Assembly: GCA_001045525.1 (NCBI GenBank)
Contig: LDWW01000001.1
Span: forward strand, 62,001-126,000
DNA from: Chitinispirillum alkaliphilum
GTDB taxonomy: Bacteria > Fibrobacterota > Chitinivibrionia > Chitinivibrionales > Chitinispirillaceae
Direction: 5' to 3'
DNA length: 64,000 nt
The position numbers and the translations under genes are program-made. The first letter of the stretch is position 1, and each line of letters starts with the position of its first letter. The notes under the pieces are model-generated. The model saw only the letters and a program-made list of their open reading frames with translations, did no database searches and was not told where the DNA came from. This document shows, piece by piece, positions 13,933 to 37,891 of this stretch.

Positions 13933-14373
13933 TCAATGGCTCCTTTGCTCTGATAAAGAATGAACTGGTTAATTAATAATCTCTAAGTTATCATTCACAC
14001 CTATTTAAGCACTTAAAAAACGACAGCTGCTGGAGAGTTGGTTAGAAAGAGATTGGCCAGTTTGTTCTGAAGTGCCGGAAAAAACCCTTGTCTTTTGTTC
14101 TCGCCTTAGCCGTAGAAAGAAGTGGTAATTTAGTAATATAAGTTTAAGATTATAATTGTCAAAAAAAAATTATATATATAGATCGACGCAAAACTTCTGT
14201 GCGTGGCATGATTGTTGAAAGATGGGTTGGGAAAGAAGAGGCTCTGTGGGTTTTAATCAAGATCAAAGAGGGGGTTGGGTAGTTGGGAAAAAAACAACTT
14301 GACTAAGTTGCTCAACTTGGTTATATTTGAATTGTGACTCATTTGGAGATATTACAGGAGTTTTGGTCAATAG
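13933..14373. other. Divergent regulatory region, lyase / sulfur island
   Basis: This stretch of 441 bases separates the minus-strand lyase from the plus-strand sulfur operon. It is AT-rich, with a long A-run followed by a TATATATA tract near 14160-14180. The promoter and operator of the Rrf2 gene are near its right end. No coding frame is convincing. A short repeat ACGCA...TGCGT sits near 14186-14205. I see nothing else. Confidence 0.6.
14295..14327 (+). promoter_or_regulatory. Sigma-70-type promoter with overlapping inverted-repeat operator
   Basis: TTGACT (14299-14304) and TATATT (14322-14327) are separated by exactly 17 nt, a strong sigma-70 arrangement. The -35 box lies inside a perfect inverted repeat, CAACTT-GACT-AAGTTG (14295-14310). 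A third half-site CAACTT follows at 14313-14318, inside the spacer. A repressor bound here would block polymerase. The first gene downstream is an Rrf2/CymR-type regulator, so autoregulation in response to sulfur supply is the natural reading; binding itself is inferred. Confidence 0.75.
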
Positions 14374-18529: not shown

Positions 18530-20848
18530 ATGAACGTGTATAAAATTCCTGAAAGCATAAGCTCTGAAATTGATGACCTGGAAAAGTTAATGGTCAAATT
18601 TACTAACGGAGATGTTCAGGAGTCTGAACTTAAAGCCTACAGGGTCCCTTTCGGAGTGTACGAACAGCGTGTAAAGGGGAAATATATGGCCAGAATACGT
18701 TTTCCCGCTGGAATAGTCACTCCCAAACAGTTTAAAGCAGCTGCAAAAGCATCTCAACGGTACGGCTCCGGTTTACTGCATATAACAACCAGACAGGAAC
18801 TTCAGATTCATGATGTGCCTGTGGAGAATATAATCCCCCTGTTAAGAGAACTTCTCAAATGGGGTATGTCTACCAGGGGGGGCGGGGGTAACACTGTCAG
18901 AAATATCATAGGTTCCTACGATTCAGGGGTATCGGTGGATGAGGTGTTTGATATCTCCCCTTATGCAGTTTCTTTAACAGAGCAGATGGTGGCAAGAAGT
19001 GATTCCTGGCTTCTGCCCCGTAAATATAAGATCGCTTTCTCCAACACACCCGGGGATAACTCATTTGCGGGTATAAATGATATCGGCTTTATTGCATCTG
19101 TTCGGGATGGGGTTGAGGGATTCAGAGTGTATGTTGCAGGTGGATTGGGGCGCATGTCTCAAAGCGGAATACTGTTGCACGAATTTATTTCTGCTGATGA
19201 GGTTTTTTACAGCGCAGAAGCAGTAAAACGGGTTTTCTATAAATATGGAAACAGAAAGAATAAACACTCAGCCAGACTGCGCTTTCTTCTCAACAACATG
19301 GGTGAAGAGCTTTTCAGGGAGAAGTATGAGACAGAGAGAGCTTCTCTTAAAAAAGTGTTCAGAGCTTTTCCCAAACCAAAAGATATTGATTTGACAAATG
19401 GTTTGACAGGGCATACACCCCTTGATGTAAGTGGTGAAGATTTTGACCTTTGGAAAAACCGGTATGTTAAGGCTCAGAAACAAACGGGGTTATACTCTGT
19501 AATGGTGCCTTTCATGCACGGGATATTGAACTCAGAGGACGCAATCAATCTGGCCGGATTTCTCGAAGGCTTTGGGGAGGATGTGATGCGTTTTACGCCT
19601 GATCAGAATATCTCAGTTCGCAATATTCCAAAGAATTTCCTGGGGCTGGTATTCTTAAAGCTAAGAGAAGTTACAGATCTCTGGAACAAACCTTTTCTGT
19701 TCGGGCAATCAGTTGCCTGTGCTGGGGCTTCGACTTGCCAGCTGGGTATGTGTATTTCCCGTGGTGCGCTCAAAGCCACTTTGGATATTCTGGAAAAATC
19801 ACAACTTGATGCCGATAAGGTTTCTGATGTGAGAATGCATTTCTCAGGGTGTTCAAACAATTGTGGAAAACACTCTTCTGCACATCTTGGGTTTTTCGGA
19901 AAAGCAGGGAGAAAGGGTAAGCACATATATCCTGCATATAATGTAGTTGCCGGATATCAGGTGGTAGAAAACGGATCTGATCAGTTGGCGGAAAAAATCG
20001 ATGAAATCAGTGCTAAAGATTTACCTCATTTTACTTACGAATTGCTGAGTCACTATGCACAGAAAAAACATCTTTTCCCCTCCTTTGGGGCATACCTGGA
20101 AAAGGAAGGGTTTGAAGTGATCAGAAGTATATGCAGCTCTTTCAGGGATATTCCTGATTATCAAGAAGAAAGCAGCTATTACTATGACTGGGAAAGCAAG
20201 GAGAAATTTTCACTTGCCGGAAGAGGTACCGGGGAGTGTAGTGCTGGCTTGTTTGATCTCATTGAGCTCGATCTTGCAAAACTCAGAAAACTAAGAAAAG
20301 AACTTGAGGTTGACAGTAAAGATAAAGTGCTTCTAAAAGATCTTCTTCTGACAGCTGCAAGGATGTTGCTTGTCACCCGTGGTTTAGAGGCCACCGATTA
20401 TGCTCAGACTATAAAGCTGTTCAGGGATAATTTTATCCAGGCCGGTCTCATCGGGGAGGAACACAGAGGTGTTGTGGATGGTGCACTTGATGAAAATCCA
20501 GATTTCCAAAACAGATTCACCGAAATCAGGGCTTTGGCTGATGCCGTTGAAAGGCTTTATTTAAGCATGGATGATTCATTGCAGTTTCACACTGAGGATT
20601 TGGAAAAGAGTAAAGAAGAGAAAATTGCAATAAAGGATTTCAGGGGTGTGGCTTGTCCCATGAATTTTGTAAAAACTAAAATGGCCCTCTCGCATTTAAA
20701 TCGAGGAGAAATTCTGGGAGTACTTCTGGATGATGGTGAGCCGATTGAAAATGTGCCAGGTTCAGTTGCTGCAGAAGGGCATGAGGTCCTTAGTAAAGAG
20801 AAAATTGATGACCACTGGAAATTAGTTATTAAAAAGTCAAACACCTGA
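18530..20848 (+). CDS. Ferredoxin-type sulfite reductase fused to a TusA/SirA domain
   Basis: The 772-residue protein has two parts. Residues about 1-560 form a nitrite/sulfite reductase hemoprotein with two ferrodoxin-like/siroheme repeats (KYMARIRFPAG, LHITTRQELQIHDVP, and TRGGGGNTVRNI for siroheme binding). The cluster ligands are C397-x5-C403 and C441-x3-C445, which bridge a 4Fe-4S cluster to siroheme. After a helical linker (about 590-690), residues about 698-772 are a TusA-type domain with the active Cys 709 in ACPMNFVKTK. TusA proteins carry sulfur as a persulfide. In this operon the fusion suggests that newly reduced sulfur is handed to the E1/carrier without release. A ferredoxin is the likely donor, since no NADPH-flavoprotein gene is adjacent. 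Nitrite reduction cannot be ruled out by sequence alone. Confidence 0.87.
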   Translation: MNVYKIPESISSEIDDLEKLMVKFTNGDVQESELKAYRVPFGVYEQRVKGKYMARIRFPAGIVTPKQFKAAAKASQRYGSGLLHITTRQELQIHDVPVENIIPLLRELLKWGMSTRGGGGNTVRNIIGSYDSGVSVDEVFDISPYAVSLTEQMVARSDSWLLPRKYKIAFSNTPGDNSFAGINDIGFIASVRDGVEGFRVYVAGGLGRMSQSGILLHEFISADEVFYSAEAVKRVFYKYGNRKNKHSARLRFLLNNMGEELFREKYETERASLKKVFRAFPKPKDIDLTNGLTGHTPLDVSGEDFDLWKNRYVKAQKQTGLYSVMVPFMHGILNSEDAINLAGFLEGFGEDVMRFTPDQNISVRNIPKNFLGLVFLKLREVTDLWNKPFLFGQSVACAGASTCQLGMCISRGALKATLDILEKSQLDADKVSDVRMHFSGCSNNCGKHSSAHLGFFGKAGRKGKHIYPAYNVVAGYQVVENGSDQLAEKIDEISAKDLPHFTYELLSHYAQKKHLFPSFGAYLEKEGFEVIRSICSSFRDIPDYQEESSYYYDWESKEKFSLAGRGTGECSAGLFDLIELDLAKLRKLRKELEVDSKDKVLLKDLLLTAARMLLVTRGLEATDYAQTIKLFRDNFIQAGLIGEEHRGVVDGALDENPDFQNRFTEIRALADAVERLYLSMDDSLQFHTEDLEKSKEEKIAIKDFRGVACPMNFVKTKMALSHLNRGEILGVLLDDGEPIENVPGSVAAEGHEVLSKEKIDDHWKLVIKKSNT

Positions 20849-22482: not shown

Positions 22483-22562
22483 AAGCTAATCTGGAGTTGT
22501 TTTGAGGTTTGTTGGTCAGAGTAATGCAGATGCGAAAAATTAAAACTAAAGGTTTTGAAAAA

Positions 22563-24344
22563 ATGGAAAAACGGGAACAAATGAACATAGTTGTAGTGGG
22601 TCATGTAGATCATGGTAAAAGTACTGTGATCGGACGGTTACTGGCTGATACCGGTTCACTTCCGGAGGGAAAACTTGAGCAGGTGAAGGCAATGTGCAGC
22701 AGGAATGCCCGTCCTTTTGAATACGCATTCCTTCTTGATGCACTGAAAGACGAACAGGCTCAGGGCATAACCATCGATACTGCCCGGTGTTTTTTTAAAA
22801 CTGCAAAGCGAGACTATATCATTATAGATGCCCCGGGACATGTGGAGTTTCTGAAAAACATGGTAACTGGTGCAGCAAGGGCTGAAGCTGCGCTGCTGGT
22901 AATTGATGCCAAAGAGGGTATACAGGAAAATTCAAGGAGACATGGTTATCTGGTTTCAATGCTTGGGATAAGTCAGGTTGTTGTTCTTGTAAACAAAATG
23001 GATCTGGTTGACTGGGACAGTAAATATTATCAGAGCATAGTGTCTGAGTATTCTCAGTTTCTGGTGAAACTTGGCGTGGAGCCGGCTGAGTTTATTCCTG
23101 TAAGTGCAAGAGAGGGTGAAAATATTGCCAATCACTCAAAGCGTGCTTCATGGTATGCTGGTCCAAACGTCCTGCAGGTTATAGATGGGTTTAGAAAAGG
23201 GGATATACCGGAGAAAAAACCTCTTCGTTTTCCGGTGCAGGATGTGTACAAATTTACCGAGCTTGGGGATGACAGAAGAATAATTGCAGGAACGGTTGAA
23301 AGCGGAACTGTTTCGGTTGGGGATGAAATTGTTTTTCTGCCTTCGGGTAAGAAGTCTGAGATCAAAACGGTTGAAATGTTCAATTCTCCACAAAGGACAA
23401 AGGCTGGACCTGGGAATGCCATAGGGTTCACACTCAGGGACGAGCTATATATCAAAAGAGGGGAATTAATGTGTAAACCACAGGAAGAATCCAGTGTTGG
23501 CAAAAGATTCAGGGCCAATATATTCTGGATGGGCAGATCTCCGTTGATAAAAAATAAAAAGTACAAATTGAAAATCGCAGCCTCCAGAACATCTTTGAGA
23601 CTTGTTGACGTGGTATCATGCATTGATGCAACTGATCTTAATACTATTACAGGAAAACAGCAACTTGACCGTCACGATGTGGCGGAGTGTGTGCTTGAGA
23701 CAACAAGACCGATTGCTTTTGATAAGGTGGAAGATATTGAATGCACCGCAAGGTTTGTTATAGTCGATGGGTATGATATCGCCGGAGGAGGAATAATCAC
23801 CGAAGCCCTGAAAAGTGACACTTCTATTACAACAGAACATGTGGTCAGAAGAGAAAATCATTGGGATTCGGGTTTGGTTAAACTATCTGAGAGGGAAAAC
23901 GTCTTTGGTCACAAAGCAAAATTTATCCTGCTTAGTGGGGATTCAAGCTGCATAACAGTTGCCAAAAAACTGGAAAGAAAACTCTTTGATGCTGGTTTTA
24001 ATGCGCATTATCTGAGTATTGAGAACCTTGAGGAGGGGATGGACAGTGATGTTCTCGACTCACTTGATAAGAGAGATGAAATGGTACGGCGGTTAGGTGA
24101 GCTTGCAAGGATTCTAACCGGATCGGGGCAGATTTTTATTACCGCTTCTTCAAACTTGGATCGGTATGATATAGAAATCCTTAAAGACCTGAACAAACCA
24201 AATGAAATCATGACTATAAATATTGGTAATGATGATAAATTCATGATTAACTACAGGGAGTCATATCAGGACAACGATTTTATTGTTTCAGATATATACA
24301 GCAAGCTGGTAGAAGAGAGTATAATACCAGATTATTCAATTTAG
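22563..24344 (+). CDS. cysN: Sulfate adenylyltransferase subunit 1 with degenerate APS-kinase tail
   Basis: About 593 residues from ATG 22563; start codons up to 54 nt further upstream are possible and none has a strong ribosome-binding site. The GTPase part is intact: GHVDHGKST (13-21), [17 protein letters not shown], and elongation-factor-like barrels to about residue 440. It drives APS synthesis with CysD. The last 150 residues follow the CysC (APS kinase) plan ([44 protein letters not shown]), but the P-loop GxSGxGKST is replaced by GDSSCIT and the DGDNxR motif is lost. It cannot be a normal kinase. The neighbouring APS reductase needs no PAPS, so loss of kinase activity costs nothing. 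Confidence 0.92.
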
Positions 24345-24364
24345 CTGACTTGTCGAGTTGCTTA

Positions 24365-25402
24365 ATGAAAAACAGAGGATTTTCCAGGACACTTAGAACT
24401 ATACTACTCTCTTCATCTCTGCTATTCATGAGCTGTGTTTGCTGCAGTTCTGTGAATGAGACAACGGTAGAGATTCTTAATGTCTCTTACGATCCGACCC
24501 GGGATTTGTTTGTGGATATTAACAGCCACTTCTCAGAATACTGGGAGGGGAAAACCGGGCAGAGTGTAAGAATTTTGCAGTCTCATGGTGGTTCCGGTAA
24601 ACAGGCACGATCAGTAATTGACGGATTAAGGGCTGATGTAGTCACACTTGCCCTGGCTCACGATATAGAAGCTATCAGCAGAAATGGGTTTATATATAAT
24701 AATTGGCAGAATCGGCTGAAACACAACAGCACCCCTTTTCATTCGACAATAGTATTCATTGTGCGCAAGGGAAATCCGGCAGCAATAATGGATTGGGATG
24801 ACCTTGCAAGACCCGATGTATCCGTAGTAACACCTAATCCAAAAATTTCCGGTGGAGCACGATGGAATTACCTTGGGGCACTGGGTTATGCAATAGAAAA
24901 TGAGAAGACGGAAGCGGAGACAGAGATCTTTCTGGAAAAAATCTTCAGAAACGTGCCGGTTCTGGACGCTGGAGCAAGAGGTTCGCTCACCACATTCATA
25001 CAAAGGGGTATAGGAGATGTGCTGATATCCTGGGAAAGTGAGGCTTACTTGGCTCTTCAGTTATTTGGAAATGATCTTTTGGAGATAGTGTATCCCTCAG
25101 TAAGTGTTTTGGCTGAACCCGCTGTATCTGTTGTAGACAAAGTGGTACAGCGCAAAGGCACAGAGGACATAGCCACGGCTTATTTAGAGTTCTTGTACTC
25201 CGAAAAAGGGCAGAAAACAGGAGCTGAACATTTTTTCAGACCTTCAGATGAGAATCTTTTGTTGCAGTATTCTGCAAACTTTCCTGACATTTTAATGCTC
25301 AGTATTGAAGAGTTAGGGGGGTGGGATCTGATTCAGAAAAAACATTTCGCAGATGGGGGATTATTCGACAGAATATTCAGCCGCAGAAGGGGCAGAGGAT
25401 GA
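24365..25402 (+). CDS. Sulfate ABC transporter substrate-binding lipoprotein (Sbp/CysP family)
   Basis: From ATG 24365 (an in-frame TTG at 24350 is an alternative) the protein has a lipoprotein signal, ending FMSC at about residue 22, so it would be membrane-anchored. The mature part is a sulfate-binding protein: LNVSYDPTRDLF, QSHGGSGKQARSV (sulfate-contact loop), ADVVTLAL, IVRKGNP, PNPKISGGARWNYL, and VLDAGARGSLTTFIQRGIGDVLISWE. Length is normal. It delivers sulfate (or thiosulfate) to CysTWA encoded next. Its stop overlaps the cysT start. Confidence 0.92.
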   Translation: MKNRGFSRTLRTILLSSSLLFMSCVCCSSVNETTVEILNVSYDPTRDLFVDINSHFSEYWEGKTGQSVRILQSHGGSGKQARSVIDGLRADVVTLALAHDIEAISRNGFIYNNWQNRLKHNSTPFHSTIVFIVRKGNPAAIMDWDDLARPDVSVVTPNPKISGGARWNYLGALGYAIENEKTEAETEIFLEKIFRNVPVLDAGARGSLTTFIQRGIGDVLISWESEAYLALQLFGNDLLEIVYPSVSVLAEPAVSVVDKVVQRKGTEDIATAYLEFLYSEKGQKTGAEHFFRPSDENLLLQYSANFPDILMLSIEELGGWDLIQKKHFADGGLFDRIFSRRRGRG

Positions 25403-26244
25403 CCGAGAAAAGCCGAAAAAATCCCCGAAGCGTTATTCCCGGATTTGGGCTGACAATGGGGTTTACTCTTGTATTCCTTTCACTTGTGGTGTTGATTCCA
25501 CTGTCAACAATTTTGCTAAAAACCTCATCTCTGTCCTGGGGTCAATTTGTAGCTATAATTACAGATGAACGAGTAATAGCTGCATATACTCTTACTCTGA
25601 CTGTCGCATTTTCCGCAGCAATAGTAAATGTGGTTTTCGGGGTTGTCATTTCCTGGGTGCTTATAAGGTATGATTTTCCGGGCAGAAAAATTCTGGATGG
25701 TCTTATTGATCTGCCCTTTGCACTGCCAACTGCAGTAGCGGGCATCTCGCTTACCGCAATTTATGCCCCAAATGGTTTGATCGGTGGGTTGTTGAATCCT
25801 TTGGGTATAAGTGTCGCATATGCACCTTTGGGTATAGTGATTGCACTTGTGTTCATCGGCCTTCCATTTGTAGTGAGAACTGTTCAGCCTGTTATCCAGG
25901 AATTTGACAAAGAGGTGGAAGAGGCTTCTGTTTGCTTAGGGGCATGCAGGTGGACCACATTCAGAAAAGTCATTTTTCCACAATTGCTCCCAGCGATATT
26001 AACCGGATTCGCACTGGCTCTTGCCAGGGGAATAGGGGAATATGGCTCTGTTATTTTCATCTCCGGAAACATGCCTTATGCCACAGAAGTGGTTTCTTTA
26101 CTTATAATGAGCCGCCTTGAGCAGTTTGATTACACTGGAGCTACTGCAATTGCTCTTGTAATGCTTATGACATCATTTGTAATTTTGCTCACTGTCAATC
26201 TTATTCAGTGGTATGCTGCCAGATTCACTCATGAAAGAAAGTGA
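25399..26244 (+). CDS. cysT: Sulfate ABC transporter permease CysT (CysU)
   Basis: The 281-residue inner-membrane permease has six hydrophobic segments. The EAA loop is EEASVCLGACRWTTFRKVIFP, preceded by a typical sulfate-permease segment (IDLPFALPTAVAGI). I start it at ATG 25399, which overlaps the stop of the binding-protein gene (ATGA); a longer frame would duplicate coding sequence of that gene. It forms the channel together with CysW. Confidence 0.93.
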   Translation: MTEKSRKNPRSVIPGFGLTMGFTLVFLSLVVLIPLSTILLKTSSLSWGQFVAIITDERVIAAYTLTLTVAFSAAIVNVVFGVVISWVLIRYDFPGRKILDGLIDLPFALPTAVAGISLTAIYAPNGLIGGLLNPLGISVAYAPLGIVIALVFIGLPFVVRTVQPVIQEFDKEVEEASVCLGACRWTTFRKVIFPQLLPAILTGFALALARGIGEYGSVIFISGNMPYATEVVSLLIMSRLEQFDYTGATAIALVMLMTSFVILLTVNLIQWYAARFTHERK

Positions 26245-27113
26245 AATTACGCACAATGCTCAACCAGATTAAAAGTTTAAAAAAAGTCAAAAGCCATATA
26301 TCAGAGCCCCCTCTGGTTAAAGCTCTGCTGATATCTGTAACGGTATTGTTTCTGTTTTTGGTACTGATTCTGCCGCTCATTACTGTTTTTATTCAGGCTT
26401 TCAGCTCTGGGTTAGTTCCCTACCTGAGCGCAATCAGGCACCCGGATGCAATTGCGGCTGTCCGTCTGACTCTGACAACCGTGGCAATTGCTGTGCCATT
26501 TAATGTATTGTTTGGGATATTTGCTGCATGGGCTGTAACTAAATTCAACTTTAAAGGTAAAAGTATCATTCTCTCCTTTATGGACCTGCCATTTGCTGTA
26601 TCACCTGTCATCGCAGGAATGATCTTTGTGCTCTTGTTTGGTGTCAGTGGGATATTCGGGCCACTTCTCTCAAAGCTTGATATTCAAATCATTTTTGCTC
26701 TGCCCGGAATTATCATTACAACTGTGTTTGTAACATTTTCCTATGTGGCGCGTGAGCTGATTCCGTTAATGCAGTCTCAGGGTACACTTGAAGAGGAGGC
26801 TGCAGTTTGTATGGGAGCTGGTGGGTGGAAAATTTTCAGAAAAATCACCTTACCAAACATCAAATGGGGTCTTCTCTACGGAACTATACTCTGCAGCGCA
26901 AGGGCAATCGGAGAATTTGGAGCGGTTTCAGTAGTTTCAGGACATATCAGAGGTAAAACAAATACGCTTCCATTGCACATAGAAATACTTTACAACGAAT
27001 ATCATTTTGTTGCCTCGTTTGCTGTTGCCTCTCTTCTGGTTGCCCTGGCTTTGATAACACTTGTATTAAGGAATTTACTTGAATGGAAACTTAACAGAAC
27101 GGAGCAAATATGA
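26241..27113 (+). CDS. cysW: Sulfate ABC transporter permease CysW
   Basis: The 290-residue permease is paralogous to CysT: FMDLPFAVSPVIAGMIFVLLFG and the EAA loop EEEAAVCMGAGGWKIFRKITLP. GEFGAVSVVSGHIRGKTNTLPL is strongly CysW-like. The GTG start overlaps the cysT stop (GTGA), and the gene ends overlapping cysA. A downstream ATG at 26256 is possible but loses the overlap. Confidence 0.93.
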   Translation: MKLRTMLNQIKSLKKVKSHISEPPLVKALLISVTVLFLFLVLILPLITVFIQAFSSGLVPYLSAIRHPDAIAAVRLTLTTVAIAVPFNVLFGIFAAWAVTKFNFKGKSIILSFMDLPFAVSPVIAGMIFVLLFGVSGIFGPLLSKLDIQIIFALPGIIITTVFVTFSYVARELIPLMQSQGTLEEEAAVCMGAGGWKIFRKITLPNIKWGLLYGTILCSARAIGEFGAVSVVSGHIRGKTNTLPLHIEILYNEYHFVASFAVASLLVALALITLVLRNLLEWKLNRTEQI

Positions 27114-28171
27114 TGCATGTCAGTATTAATTCGCTTTCAAAGAAATTTGGCTCCTTTAGTGCTGTTAGTAATGTCAGCTTTGAAATAAAAAAAGGAAAAC
27201 TTATCGGGCTTCTGGGGCCAAGCGGTGGCGGAAAGACAACTATTCTGAGACTACTGGCAGGTTTGGAATACCCTGATAGTGGGGAAATTTACATTCATGG
27301 CGAAAGGGTTAACGACTATAAGCCGCAAAAAAGACAAATCGGGTTTGTGTTCCAAAATTATGCACTTTTCAGACATATGAGTGTGTTTGACAATATTGCT
27401 TTTGGGTTACATGTCCAGAAAAGAAAGAAGAGTGAAATCAAAACCAGAGTGAGAGAACTGCTGGAGCTAACAGACTTAGAAGGTGTGGAGAAAAGATTAC
27501 CCGGCCAGCTCTCCGGGGGACAGAGGCAGCGTGTTGCATTTGCCAGGGCACTTGCCCCCGAGCCACAGTTATTGCTGCTTGATGAACCATTTGCTGCTAT
27601 AGATGCAAAGGTGCGCAAAGAACTAAGAACATGGCTCAAGGACATGAACCAGCGTCTTGGCGTAACCACCATTTTCGTTACTCATGATCAGGAAGAAGCC
27701 GTTGAGATAGCGGATGAAATAATCATTGTAAATAAAGGGCAAATTGAACAAATGGGTACACCTGTTCAAATTTACAACGAACCGGCTACTCCGTTTGTTG
27801 CAAGTTTCGTTGGGGAGTCAAACTATCTGGACTCAGTATCCCAATTCAAGGGATTCCCTTCGGAAATCAAAAATGCAAAGGCCATAATCAGACCTGAATT
27901 TGTGGAAATCGGGAGAAAAAATGAAATCACTTCACCTTATGCTTCCGAGACAGGGGAGGTCAAGCATGTCTTCTTCAGAGGAGACAGCTGGCAAATTGAT
28001 GTTCAGGTGGGAGAAACTGTTCTGTTCGGTTTCAGATCAGTTAAAAAAGATCCGCTCAAAATTGGGGAAAAAGTATTGGTCTTAATTCACAAAGTTTACA
28101 TATTTGATGGTAAGGATAGTTCTATTATGGGAAACAATTTGCTTGTTGACCCCATGCCTGTCTACATCTAA
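27110..28171 (+). CDS. cysA: Sulfate ABC transporter ATP-binding protein CysA
   Basis: The 353-residue ATPase has Walker A GPSGGGKTT (about 35-43), the Q-loop FVFQNYALFRHMSVFDNI, signature LSGGQRQRVAFARAL, Walker B LLLLDEPFAAID and the switch His in VTHDQEEA. The C-terminal part (about 240-353) is a TOBE-type regulatory domain (ETGEVKHVFFRGDSWQIDV). It energises CysTW and completes the uptake system. ATG overlaps the cysW stop. This is the last clearly intact transport gene; decayed asr sequence follows within 40 nt. Confidence 0.95.
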   Translation: MMHVSINSLSKKFGSFSAVSNVSFEIKKGKLIGLLGPSGGGKTTILRLLAGLEYPDSGEIYIHGERVNDYKPQKRQIGFVFQNYALFRHMSVFDNIAFGLHVQKRKKSEIKTRVRELLELTDLEGVEKRLPGQLSGGQRQRVAFARALAPEPQLLLLDEPFAAIDAKVRKELRTWLKDMNQRLGVTTIFVTHDQEEAVEIADEIIIVNKGQIEQMGTPVQIYNEPATPFVASFVGESNYLDSVSQFKGFPSEIKNAKAIIRPEFVEIGRKNEITSPYASETGEVKHVFFRGDSWQIDVQVGETVLFGFRSVKKDPLKIGEKVLVLIHKVYIFDGKDSSIMGNNLLVDPMPVYI

Positions 28172-28209
28172 AAACAGAAATCAGCACGAAGAAAATTCGG
28201 AGGTAACAA

Positions 28210-28632
28210 ATGGATCAGGCAACTATGCAAAAGAGCAATCCTTGACACAAAATCTGGATGGGCTTGGGGAGAAATCTGACTTCAATATCCGTTTCCCTGA
28301 AAAAACGGGACCAATGTAGTTGTCCCTGATGTAGAAAAGATGCCATCACAAATGTATAACCACTCTTTGTGGAATGAATATGACGATGTATATCGTGTGG
28401 ACGTTGTAATATATCATGTGTCACTTGTAGCTGTTTCTCAACCGTCGATATGGAATATGAGGAAAACCAGAACGTAGGTGAAAGACGCCGTGTGTGGGAT
28501 GGGTGCCATCTTGATGGATTCACCGACATGGCAGGAGGGCATAGTTTCAGGGTGAAAAAAAACGAAAGGATTATAAAAAGAGATTTGGTACCCATATGTG
28601 TATTGGGTGTTTGGGCGATGTGATAACACGGT
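28210..28632 (+). pseudogene. asrA: Decayed asrA remnant (anaerobic sulfite reductase subunit A, C-terminal part)
   Basis: AsrA-like sequence is spread over several frames. One frame gives the segment leading to the first cluster (VEKMPSQMYNHSLWNEYD, about 28341-28384). After losing a base, the next frame (28384 on) gives RCISCGRCNISCVTCSCF, GERRRVWDGCHLDGF and MAGGHSFR. After a further short deletion a third frame gives DYKKRFGTHMCIGC (about 28575-28613), and a shifted GRCDN follows. These are the successive 4Fe-4S ferredoxin motifs of AsrA in the right order. The N-terminal two thirds are missing or unrecognisable; a GGAGG-preceded ATG at 28210 runs only 11 codons. It cannot make an AsrA protein. 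Confidence 0.82.
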
Positions 28633-28635
28633 CAG

Positions 28636-29130
28636 AACGCTCGATCTGTATTGGCTGCCAGGCATGTGTGAAAAACTGTCGTCAGAAAGTTACAGATGCT
28701 CTTTCACTAAAAAACTGACAGGTCAAAAGAAATGAGAAGATCTGTATCGGGTGCGGGGAGTGTATATTATCATGCCCCACAGGTGCATGGACAAGAAAAT
28801 CAAAAAATTTCTTCAGGTTGTGATATGGGAAGAACAGGTAAGAAAAACCCAAGACTTGCACAACCGTTCTTAAATTGGGTAAGTGAAGAAACTGTACTGA
28901 AAGTGATCGAAAATATGTATACTTACATAGATCACTTTATCGATAAAACGCTGGTCAAAGAGCATGTGGATTATATTGTAGACAGGACAGGGTACCCGGT
29001 ATTCAGGGATTGGGTACTGCGTGATGTTGAGCTAAACAAAGAGGCGAAAGTCGCAAAACCATATCAACTGGACAGGGTACAGATACGGTTCAGAAAACAA
29101 TCTTCGCTGATGTACGAAATCATTTTATGA
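28636..29130 (+). pseudogene. asrC: Decayed asrC remnant (anaerobic sulfite reductase subunit C, C-terminal half)
   Basis: Starting about 28636, one frame reads SERSICIGCQACVKNC, meets an in-frame TGA at 28716-28718, and continues NEKICIGCGECILSCPTGAW. This is the tandem 4Fe-4S ferredoxin pair of AsrC. Two more frameshifts near 28815-28830 lead to GRTGKKNPRLAQPFLNWV and on to VLRDVELNKEAKVAKPY, the C-terminal AsrC region, which stays open to the TGA at 29130. The siroheme-binding N-terminal half is absent, and so is asrB between asrA and asrC. An open frame beginning at 28732 is therefore only a fragment. Its stop overlaps the start of the hemA-like gene. Confidence 0.85.
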
Positions 29131-30008
29131 TTACACTAAAAGGAATAGATCAGTCCTTCTCGATAAGAGAACGGGAAAAAGCAATTTCGGAACTAAGGCC
29201 TTCTCCCGATAAGCCTTATGTGTATATTCAAACCTGCAACAGGGTTGAACTGTATGAAGGAGACGGCACTGCCGGGTTCGAAACCGCTTTACATATCTTC
29301 AAGGTGGTGTCGGGCCTGAAGTCCTCTATGCTTGGGGAAAATCACATTCAGGGACAGGTGAAAAGAGCATATATGGCAGCTATAGAAGAGAACCATATTT
29401 CACCAGGTCTTCACCACCTTTTTCAGGCAGCTCTAAGAACAGGGAAAAGAGTAAGGACAGAAACTTCGATCGCGCGTGGTTCTGTTTCCCACAGTCAGGC
29501 TGCTTTTACACTGTTGCAAAAAAGCATTTGCGCTCTCTACTCAAAAAAAATTTTGTTGATAGGCATAAACCATCTTACTACCAATATCGTCTATCTTCTC
29601 AAAAATATTGGAAACGAAGAGTTGTATCTTTGTAACCGAACTGATTCGACAGCTTTCAGCCAGGCTGAAAAACTGTTTTGTAAAACAGTGCCATATGAAA
29701 ATTTCAGAAAAAAACTGGACCAAATCGATGTGATTATAACAGCCACCGCATCATCAAAGCCCCTGTTGTTAGCCAAGGAATTCCCTGTTAGTAAAGAAGT
29801 GGTATGTGTTGATTTGTCTGTGCCAAGAAACATTGAAGAGTGTGCGGGGGATCTATCTCATGTACAGTTGTACAATCTCGACGATGTGGAGCGTTGTGTT
29901 GAATTCAATTTAAATATGCGGAAAAAGGCTCTCGAAAAAGCTGAAGCAATTATTATGGAAGAAGCAAAAAGTTACTGGGCACAAAAAGAAAATAGAATTT
30001 ACGCATGA
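29127..30008 (+). CDS. Short glutamyl-tRNA reductase-like protein (HemA paralogue)
   Basis: The 293-residue protein carries the HemA catalytic region: TCNRVELYE with the thioester Cys 37, and GLKSSMLGENHIQGQVKRAY with the tRNA/glutamyl-binding His nearby. It differs from normal HemA (about 420 residues) in three ways. The N-terminal GxNH motif is GIDQ, the NADPH loop GxGxxG is GINHLT, and the C-terminal dimerisation domain is missing after about residue 290. Short HemA paralogues occur beside siroheme and sulfite-reductase genes in other anaerobes. Supplying precursor for siroheme is a plausible past or present role, and asr decay beside it suggests function may be fading. It overlaps the asrC remnant by 4 nt. 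Confidence 0.75.
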   Translation: MITLKGIDQSFSIREREKAISELRPSPDKPYVYIQTCNRVELYEGDGTAGFETALHIFKVVSGLKSSMLGENHIQGQVKRAYMAAIEENHISPGLHHLFQAALRTGKRVRTETSIARGSVSHSQAAFTLLQKSICALYSKKILLIGINHLTTNIVYLLKNIGNEELYLCNRTDSTAFSQAEKLFCKTVPYENFRKKLDQIDVIITATASSKPLLLAKEFPVSKEVVCVDLSVPRNIEECAGDLSHVQLYNLDDVERCVEFNLNMRKKALEKAEAIIMEEAKSYWAQKENRIYA

Positions 30009-30260
30009 AAGCGGCTCTGTTTAACTCGCTGTGGACAGAAGAAATCATGCAAGCAGGAAAATCCCAGAATCTCTAAATGGCACTCCTTCTGGAATAATAA
30101 AAAGTAAAAACCAGAAAGGATTTGAACTGGAGCTGATACGGTACAGGTTAAGGCTTTTGTGTGTATATCATGTAAAAAAGCAGGGCCAGCTTGTAAAAAG
30201 AGTAAGATTCCTTAGTATCTTAACTTTGCAGGATGGTCGATGTAAAGAGAATGCCTGGAA
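30009..30260 (+). other. Non-coding end of the sulfur island, possible tetrapyrrole-gene scar
   Basis: The 252 bases hold no intact gene. An ATG overlapping the hemA-like stop opens 23 codons (LWTEEIMQAGKSQNL, then TAA) that faintly resemble the start of porphobilinogen deaminase (HemC: LALWQxE...). The rest is broken in all plus frames. Given the decayed asr genes upstream, a hemC remnant is possible but not demonstrated. Confidence 0.3.
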
Positions 30261-33200
30261 TCATATTGAATATTTCCTTTCAAATGCATTCATTCGTCTT
30301 CTCATCCTGTTAGCAACATCTCCCTTAATATCGATCTCTTCAACCTGATCACATAGAGAAAATGCTTCAGCGATCATCTTATCGTTATTGTCGGAGGTTC
30401 TTTTGTTTTCGATCTCAGCAATGAGAGCCATCTGCAGATGTTCAAAAGCTTCAAGATCGTAGCTGTGACATAGCACGCTTCTCAACATCATTATTGCTTT
30501 TTTGTTCTGGTTTTTATGATAAAAAACAATGCCCGAACAGGTTCTTCTGTAGAGATCTATATCCGATTTGTATTCTTGTCCGCACTCAGGAGGAACCGGG
30601 AGCAGGTCATCATTTCCCAAATCAACGCTTTCAGGATCAGTATATGAAAGAACCGCCAACTGGGTTAGCCTTGTAAACAGGCAGAGCTTTTTGGAGGTCC
30701 AATCCATATCCAGATAGTCGTATTCGAGTCTTTTGTACACTTTATCTTTAATATTTGTATAGGTGTTTTCGAAAAGAGAGTATGCCTTAGGAATATCTCT
30801 GTTTTTCCGATATGTAAGACCTCTGTAATATTTGGCAAGGAAACAATCTTTACCCTCATCAGCGGATCCAAAATACTCTGCCGCGTTCTGATAATCGCCA
30901 CTTGCCAGAAATGCTCTTCCAAGCCAGAAATTTGAAGCAATTTTGTAATTGTGTTTATCAACTATCCATCGAAAAGAGAAAAGTCCGGAACTGTAATCAA
31001 GAGCTTCAAATGCATATTTAAGATGCTCCTGAGCAAGTCTTTTATTTTTCTCATTTTCAGCCAGCCTGACCTTACTTGCACCTGCTCTGATAAAGAGCCT
31101 TTCAACCCTCAGGCTATATACGCTCTCTTTTACTTTCCAGATCTTTAGCGGTTTCCAGTTCTCCTTATGAGTACATATTGCCTCTATGAAATTATTATAT
31201 GCAAGCTGATATTCGCCCTTACTGTAATGCAGTTCTGCTTCAGCTTCAAAGAAGTATGTGTTGAGAGGGTCATCATCGACAATGCCTTTCTTTTTGTAAG
31301 TACTTTCCTCGTTATCTGTTTTTTCTGAAAAGTTTCGGTTCAGTGTACATGCGAGTAATTGTAAGGAATGAAGCTTCAAACTATTGATTTCTTCAGGATA
31401 TTTTTCCAAAAGCTTTATGGCTTGTCCGAAGCAATTGTGAGCATTCTCGTAGCACTCTTCATTGAGAAACAGTCTGCCTTGAAGAGCGCATATCTGACCA
31501 TTTTTCCAGTCTTCAAGGGGGATAAGGGTCTGCTTTTTTTTGATTTCATCGAGAACTTGTGGGTTTTCTGAATATTCAGAAAACTTCTCTTCCAACCCAC
31601 GGGAAAATTCCCATAATACCTTAATCCATTTCAGATCTTCCTTCTTTTCCGGAATATTTTCTTTTAGCCTGAAAAGTACAGGGTGAGATATTGCACCGGG
31701 GCGTTTTTTAAGATTTGAGACAGATACAACGTAAAGTTCTTCATTCCGGCACTCTTTCAAGATCTGGCATTCAAGGATATTGCCCCAAATATCTAAATTG
31801 TCGGGTTCGAAGGTGAGTGTTTCAATGAAAAATTTTTCTGCTTTTTCCGGTTGCCCCAGTCGGAGATAGATCCTTCCAAAGTAGTAGTGAGTTGCGAAAT
31901 TATTCGGATTAACGGCAATCGCTTTTTTGATAAATTTCTTTGCCTGTAATGCGTGGTAGCTGAAACTGATTTTACCAACATCTTCTTTTTTGTTTTCAAT
32001 CATTTTGCTGTGGGTTAGTGCTATGGTCTGAAGCGCATCGGTCATGAGAAATTTATCATTTTGTTTTTCGGCGAGTTTAAGTGTTTCTCTTGCATATTTG
32101 AGGGACAATTTGTGCTTTAGCCAGATAAAATAGAGGTTTGATCGGAGAAAATGACCATAGGCGTTGCTGGAGTCAAGCTGGTTAATTCTTTTACATATTG
32201 ACTCAATCTCATTGCAGTCATCAATAATTTCTGGAGGCAGGCGGTTGATAGGATTTATGTAATACTCCTCAGCGTTCTCAATTGTCTTTGTAAGCCTAAT
32301 ATGGGCCAGACTAATATGGGCCTGAATGTTTTCCGGGTTCTCTGTCACTATAGACTTAAGGAGATTCAATGCATATTCGTTAAGGTTCAGAGAGTGGTAT
32401 ACCATTGCAAGACTGCACTTTGCGTGGTAGAAATTTTCGTAATCGCGAAGAGCAGATCTGAAATGCCGCTCTGCATCTATCAACAAAAGGTTCCGTTTGC
32501 TGTGACGGTTTAATGCATCCTGATAAGCCCTTATGCCCTCATTGTAGGACTGAAGTGCTCTGGTAGGAATTTTCTCTTCACTGGCAGAAAAAAGTGACAT
32601 GATTTCTGCTGCAAGGTGTTCGATCTGTTCGGCTATGGGGGGCTGGTCGCTATTGATCTTTTGTTCATGAAGGCCATAATGCGAATTGATCCGTATTACA
32701 CGGTCCTGTCCAATACCTTTGACATAACATACCAATACCCTTTTTCCTTCTTCGTCTATTATTTTGCCTGAAACCCTGACTTTTGCCCTCACGAATAAGC
32801 GGCGGAGAATTTTAAACGGAAACTCAAATTTTGTACCGGAATAGGAGATTTTCAGCTCCTGAGATTCTTCCTGCCTTGTATAGCTTCCTGCGGATATCTC
32901 CATGTCCCTAAGTGGAACGTACGCTAATCTCCTGCTGTGGTTTTCCTGCTCTCCGGTTTGATAAAGTCTTATCAAGCGGTAAAGTTCTGCTCTAAGCAGG
33001 GTGGCGATACCATGTGCCTTTTTGTTGTGATCTTCCTCTCCCTCGAACTCCTCTATGAGTATACCTTTTGTTCTCCTTGTAATATGTAAAAGCAAAAAAC
33101 TCAGTAAAGATGTAAGTCCTAAGTAGAGATAAAAGGCACGAAGAGTACACAGGCATGGAGCGATAGTGCTAACTATAGGAGAAATGATTGTGATTAGATA

Positions 33201-37406: not shown

Positions 37407-37891
37407 GGAGAAGGGGCTTTAACCGGTTCAGGTATGTAGGGACACCAGAAACTTTGGGATCACCAACAAATAAACCTGAACAATGTTGCCTAAAACCAAA
37501 TTGAGAAACGGGGTAAGTGCTTTTTCAACCTTCCCCGTTTTTTCAAAAGGTTCTTGTGAATATTTCCCAACCCTTACTGTGCATTTCTCACTGAACAACC
37601 AACCCTAACCGATTCAGCACTGTTTACACCGCCACCGAATCTGTACTGTTGTAGAGACTCACTATTACAGCTTTATTTCTCTTAATCCTTAATCCCTTAC
37701 CCCAACTCTCTGAACGGAGCAAAAAAGCAAACAATCAGGGCTAAACGCTACCTTTCAGATTACAGTAACACCCGACAGGAGATCAGAGACTTAGAACTGA
37801 ATCAGGTTTAAAAAAACTCAGTTCAAAATGACTGCAGAATGTATTATTATTGTAGTAGTACAACAGTGATTTTCAATTAGGGACAGATCAG
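37407..37891. other. Intergenic region with a terminator
   Basis: The 485 bases carry the intrinsic terminator at 37506-37543 and, further right, a 7-bp inverted repeat GAACTGA...TCAGTTC near 37795-37827. No coding frame is convincing on either strand. Confidence 0.6.
37506..37543 (+). terminator. Intrinsic terminator after the zinc-ribbon gene
   Basis: AAACGGGG (37506-37513) pairs with CCCCGTTT (37533-37540), with an inner AAG/CTT pairing. The right arm runs into six T residues (to 37543). Confidence 0.75.

Follow-up and report, generated by a model that had tools for sequence, protein, structure and literature searches.

Intact asrABC operons, encoding the sulfite reductase AsrABC, were found in about 80 genomes from many phyla. 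In several Clostridium genomes hemA lies downstream of the operon, as it does at the locus described here, and we observed asrABC and then hemA on the same strand in at least eight clostridial loci (L139, L144, L145, L146, L147, L148, L152 and L155). Judged from gene order, asr beside hemA is a recurring arrangement, which fits siroheme supply. For C. perfringens growing on sulfite a role of AsrABC in sulfur assimilation was inferred (PMC2940859). Bacterial gene decay has been described for Salmonella, where pseudogenes show a deletional bias and carry short frameshifting indels, nonsense codons and large deletions (PMC2916853). A literature search on Chitinispirillaceae together with sulfite reductase returned nothing.

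We are confident that the stretch of about 0.9 kb at 28.2-29.1 kb of the window (the whole 64,000-nucleotide stretch of DNA that was analysed; contig C1, 62001-126000) is a recently inactivated, deletion-shortened remnant of asrABC in a genome of the Chitinispirillaceae (Fibrobacterota). It resembles the operon (TIGR02910/TIGR02911/TIGR02912) in the C-terminal Fe-S region of AsrA, in the ferredoxin and C-terminal regions of AsrC, in operon order and in lying on one strand, and differs from it in lacking the whole of AsrB and the N-terminal halves of AsrA and AsrC, in carrying six frame lesions and a stop, and in its scores of 101 and 97 bits, far under the curated cut-offs of 323 and 324. The types of lesion are those of the Salmonella pseudogenes (PMC2916853), yet here the operon is down to about a third of its size while nearly all of its conserved residues are kept. 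The features that together mark a pseudogene (homology, lesions that disable the genes, lack of an intact copy in the same genome and intact copies in relatives) were all found for asrABC; the relic is an ordinary pseudogene from recent gene loss, and the operon type was already known.

The genome searched is a draft of 4.43 Mb in 160 contigs, with estimates of 98.9% for completeness and 3.6% for contamination. In the whole-genome profile search the AsrA model TIGR02910 hit a single locus, 28306-28610, in two pieces with stops inside (model positions 196-284, E=1e-28, 101.5 bits; positions 277-306, E=4e-4, 20.9 bits), a homologous remnant that falls short of the full-length cut-off of 323.15 bits. 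Similarly, the AsrC model TIGR02912 matched at 28602-29061 with positions 156-241 and 206-311 (E=2.4e-27, 96.9 bits, and E=1.3e-22, 80.9 bits, the latter with internal stops), so that only positions 156-311 are represented and the cut-off of 324.1 bits is not reached; the remaining TIGR02912 matches listed for the genome were the Sir-TusA enzyme of the same cluster and a weak ferredoxin-type match. Frame-aware protein-to-DNA alignments were made with intact AsrA, AsrB and AsrC from the family members G003, G005 and G006 and from other phyla, with six homologues each for AsrA and AsrC (for AsrA, three family members and three from other phyla). They scored 302-381 for AsrA and 449-533 for AsrC, against at most 47 for composition-shuffled DNA (12 shuffles per protein). 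The first-pass annotation, made from the sequence alone, had read the locus as a decayed asrABC with a large internal deletion, and both types of search agree with this; the AsrA and AsrC motifs that it quoted were all recovered by translating 28150-29140 in its three forward frames. An antisense open reading frame at 28215-28595, whose Pfam match (E=0.085) falls below the cut-off and is not credible, was discarded as a chance frame.

The absence of asrB and of the N-terminal half of AsrC, likewise proposed earlier, was borne out. AsrB alignments at the locus scored 28-30, the same as with shuffled DNA, and between the asrA and asrC remnants no trace of the gene (TIGR02911) was found; elsewhere in the genome only distant AsrB relatives occur, the best with 79 bits against a cut-off of 288.6. 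AsrC aligns from about residue 177 onward. AsrC has lost its sulfite-reductase half (residues 1 to about 170 in G003), and with it the invariant cysteines C113, C119, C151 and C155, which we take to be the siroheme/Fe-S ligands; these ligand cysteines of TIGR02912 are accordingly not found at the locus. Overlooked at first was that the N-terminal 170-180 or so residues of AsrA are absent as well, the asrA remnant spanning residues ~172-317 of 345 in G003 numbering. Compared with intact operons, about 1.4 kb is missing at the joint, from the end of asrA through the whole of asrB to about the middle of asrC, and the operon has shrunk from about 3 kb in relatives to about 0.9 kb here (Table 1). 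Genome-wide profile searches with AsrA, AsrB and AsrC revealed no intact asrABC copy elsewhere in the assembly. To judge from the parts that remain, which are insufficient, the relic makes no sulfite reductase now. The label 'dissimilatory-type' given to the lost enzyme holds as a loose one only, as AsrABC serves sulfur assimilation too (PMC2940859).

Table 1. Features of the asr remnant and of its surroundings, and lesions in the remnant (window positions)
Feature	Position	Strand	Evidence or change
Sir-TusA (siroheme sulfite/nitrite-reductase-like, with C-terminal TusA-like domain), intact	18530..20848	+	present in same-order relatives
cysA, intact, left flank, final gene of the sulfate ABC transporter upstream	27110..28171	+	TIGR00968 357 bits, above cut-off
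Spacer after cysA	28172..28229	+	sequence, translation; AsrA alignment weak or absent
asrA pseudogene remnant, C-terminal half	28230..28625	+	TIGR02910 E=1e-28; frame-aware alignments, six homologues
Lesion in asrA remnant	~28300	+	-1, at A-run
Lesion in asrA remnant	~28382	+	-4
Lesion in asrA remnant	~28552	+	about -31, beside A8 run
Lesion in asrA remnant	~28613	+	+2
Deletion joint	28626..28643	+	AsrA alignment ends at 28625 (GRCD); AsrC secure from ~28644
asrC pseudogene remnant, ferredoxin domain and C-terminal part, residues ~177 onward	28644..29107	+	TIGR02912; frame-aware alignments
Nonsense codon in asrC remnant	28716	+	TGA
Lesion in asrC remnant	~28821	+	-2
Lesion in asrC remnant	~29060	+	+1
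hemA, intact, short, 293 aa	29127..30008	+	TIGR01035 E=1.4e-60; same-genus orthologue 42% identical

In the spacer after cysA, a GGAGG with an ATG at 28210 (28210-28245) opens a frame of only 11 codons, which may be a leftover of the asrA start, or chance. Two intergenic stretches of the window that hold no retained open reading frames of at least 60 aa, 13933-14373 (441 bp) and 37407-37891 (485 bp), contained no Asr remnant.

The junction had been placed at about 28617-28645, between two cysteine-cluster coding stretches, and the joint, whose limits are the ends of the alignments, indeed sits between the surviving CIGC copies of AsrA (28599-28610) and AsrC (about 28647-28658). It had also been suggested that recombination between similar CxxC repeats caused the deletion. 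Deletion between direct repeats leaves a single hybrid copy. Since both CIGC stretches survive around the joint, this origin does not fit and is disfavoured. None of the repeats found around the joint forms a pair across it that would mark a recombination scar; the best pair (28643-28667 and 28739-28763) consists of the two AsrC ferredoxin motifs.

The earlier count (four or more frame changes, one stop) was correct and conservative, as the frame-aware alignments give six and one, at sites that agree within a few bases whichever of the homologues was aligned. Of the positions conserved at 95% or more in the ~80 intact proteins, the remaining span keeps 34 of 34 in AsrA and 36 of 37 in AsrC (70 of 71 in total), and a leave-one-out ranking placed the remnant within the range of intact proteins. 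With about 160 non-synonymous sites in these 71 codons and at most one change, a Poisson estimate gives a rough upper bound of ~3% substitutions per site since inactivation, a soft bound because the alignment favours conserved matches. Because so many of the highly conserved residues are kept, inactivation looks recent, and the decay looks dominated by indels. Slow neutral decay would not usually give six indels against one change at a conserved site, a balance with which some sequence error would also agree. A doubtful extension is that indel-driven decay, with the formerly selected residues intact, reflects a very recent loss of asr, perhaps with locally raised replication slippage or with selection to clear a redundant sulfite reductase quickly.

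False pseudogenes are known to arise from homopolymer sequencing errors (PMC2916853), and an intact asr operon might have been broken in this draft by indel errors or by the chimeric collapse of strain variants. The lesion at ~28300 lies in an A-run and that at ~28552 beside an A8 run, and few substitutions are seen at conserved sites. However, the joints lack about 1.4 kb of asrA/B/C and about 0.5 kb of asrA, losses that base-call errors do not bring about, and there is no second Asr place in the assembly. Moreover, hemA and the genes at 14.4-28.2 kb have uninterrupted full-length frames, and open reading frames of at least 150 aa cover 88% of the window; therefore six indels in 0.9 kb do not reflect a general error rate. 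We consider an artefact very improbable, although for the single-base lesion in the A-run a small doubt of homopolymer error stays.

The C-terminal AsrC frame forms an open reading frame of 132 aa (28732-29130) that matches TIGR02912 and PF01077, and the ATG of hemA overlaps its TGA. That this frame is still translated and useful, for instance through coupling to hemA by the TGA/ATG overlap, we regard as hardly credible: the frame is open, its middle part is homologous and it stops on the start codon of hemA, but the first ~30 residues and the tail are read in another frame than that of AsrC, the cysteines with which AsrC binds cofactors are missing, and a sigma-70 scan predicted no promoter on the + strand.

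The surroundings of the remnant can be compared with those in the same-genus genome G001. There the sulfate cluster starts with genes for an Rrf2-type regulator, cysK-like, metB-like, thiF-like and JAMM-like genes, Sir-TusA, cysH, a permease-like gene, a cysK-like gene, cysD and cysN (several of these names were given by resemblance to window genes or known families, not by profile search), and cysN is followed by a siroheme-dehydrogenase-like gene, a short hemA and further tetrapyrrole genes, without cysPTWA and without asr. The window has cysPTWA and the remnant of asr between cysN and hemA. The sulfate ABC transporter (cysP/sbp, cysT, cysW and cysA) occupies 24350-28171, after cysN; in G001 and G006 the corresponding cluster lacks an ABC transporter and includes a Pit-type permease-like gene. 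CysN (22509-24344) ends in a C-terminal domain of weak similarity to APS kinase (48.9 bits, residues 451-570), with no kinase P-loop by eye; CysH next to it scores above the APS-reductase cut-off, and a kinase step would not be needed. The short hemA keeps the TCNR motif and lacks, at both the N-terminal and the C-terminal end, much of the usual protein, and the genome carries a second, full-length hemA (on contig C2). G001 likewise has a similar hemA of 298 aa beside siroheme/heme genes and a second, full-length one. After hemA (30009-30330) no remnant of hemC, hemD, hemB or siroheme dehydrogenase scored above shuffles.

Intact asrC, flanked by frames for full AsrA and AsrB, is present in three Chitinispirillaceae genera (G003, G005 and G006). 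The suggested look for an intact asrABC at this locus in close relatives thus turned up the operon, but elsewhere in their genomes; no close relative had it between cysA and hemA, which counts against our reading. In G006, for instance, asrABC adjoins genes resembling those for an Rrf2-type regulator and a formate/nitrite-type channel, whereas the remnant adjoins cysA and hemA. No Asr was found in the genome of G001, and the gap between cysN and hemA there contains no relic, AsrA and AsrC scoring at chance level (34-35); the best AsrB score in this gap, 53, falls in the siroheme-dehydrogenase-like gene. In the AsrC tree the remnant grouped with G003 (Zod_Metabat.210) and G006 (99/57), whose operons, the nearest to it, are both intact and in another genomic place, inside a Fibrobacterota set (94/90); its placement in the AsrA tree was not settled. 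The AsrC remnant is 60% identical to that of G003 over 166 residues.

The first-pass annotation had proposed that Asr was lost after the Sir-TusA enzyme was gained. That the relic is real and that Sir-TusA displaced Asr in this way would be in line with both enzymes reducing sulfite and with the distribution in G003 (Asr, no Sir-TusA) and the same-genus G001 (Sir-TusA, no Asr). However, Sir-TusA, ~51% identical to the copies of G001 and G006, belongs to a cluster that is syntenic in G001 and in G006, a genome of another genus, and it also occurs in two other families of the order (full length in G027, partial in G035). By this distribution it looks old, and older than the decay of asr, which looks recent. 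G006 moreover keeps an intact Sir-TusA together with an intact asrABC, so the presence of Sir-TusA alone does not force the loss of Asr. Displacement following the gain is therefore disfavoured and we consider it unlikely.

We favour a recent loss of asrABC, with Sir-TusA probably present before it. An ancestral asrABC would once have stood between the sulfate transporter gene cysA and a hemA that could provide siroheme precursor. Large deletions would have taken the N-terminal half of asrA and then a block running from the end of asrA through the whole of asrB into asrC, whose front half went together with its siroheme/Fe-S ligand region; small indels and one nonsense codon broke what was left of asrA and asrC. 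Sulfite is now presumably reduced by the Sir-TusA of the same cluster, the presumed remaining sulfite reductase of this genome, and redundancy with it may have made the loss of asr tolerable.

The remnant points to a sulfite reductase that was lost recently, in a lineage whose two alternative enzymes, Asr and Sir-TusA, have a patchy distribution. Matches to AsrA or AsrC motifs or profiles in such genomes need not mean that sulfite is reduced through Asr. Beyond this loss and this warning, the locus represents ordinary genome decay.
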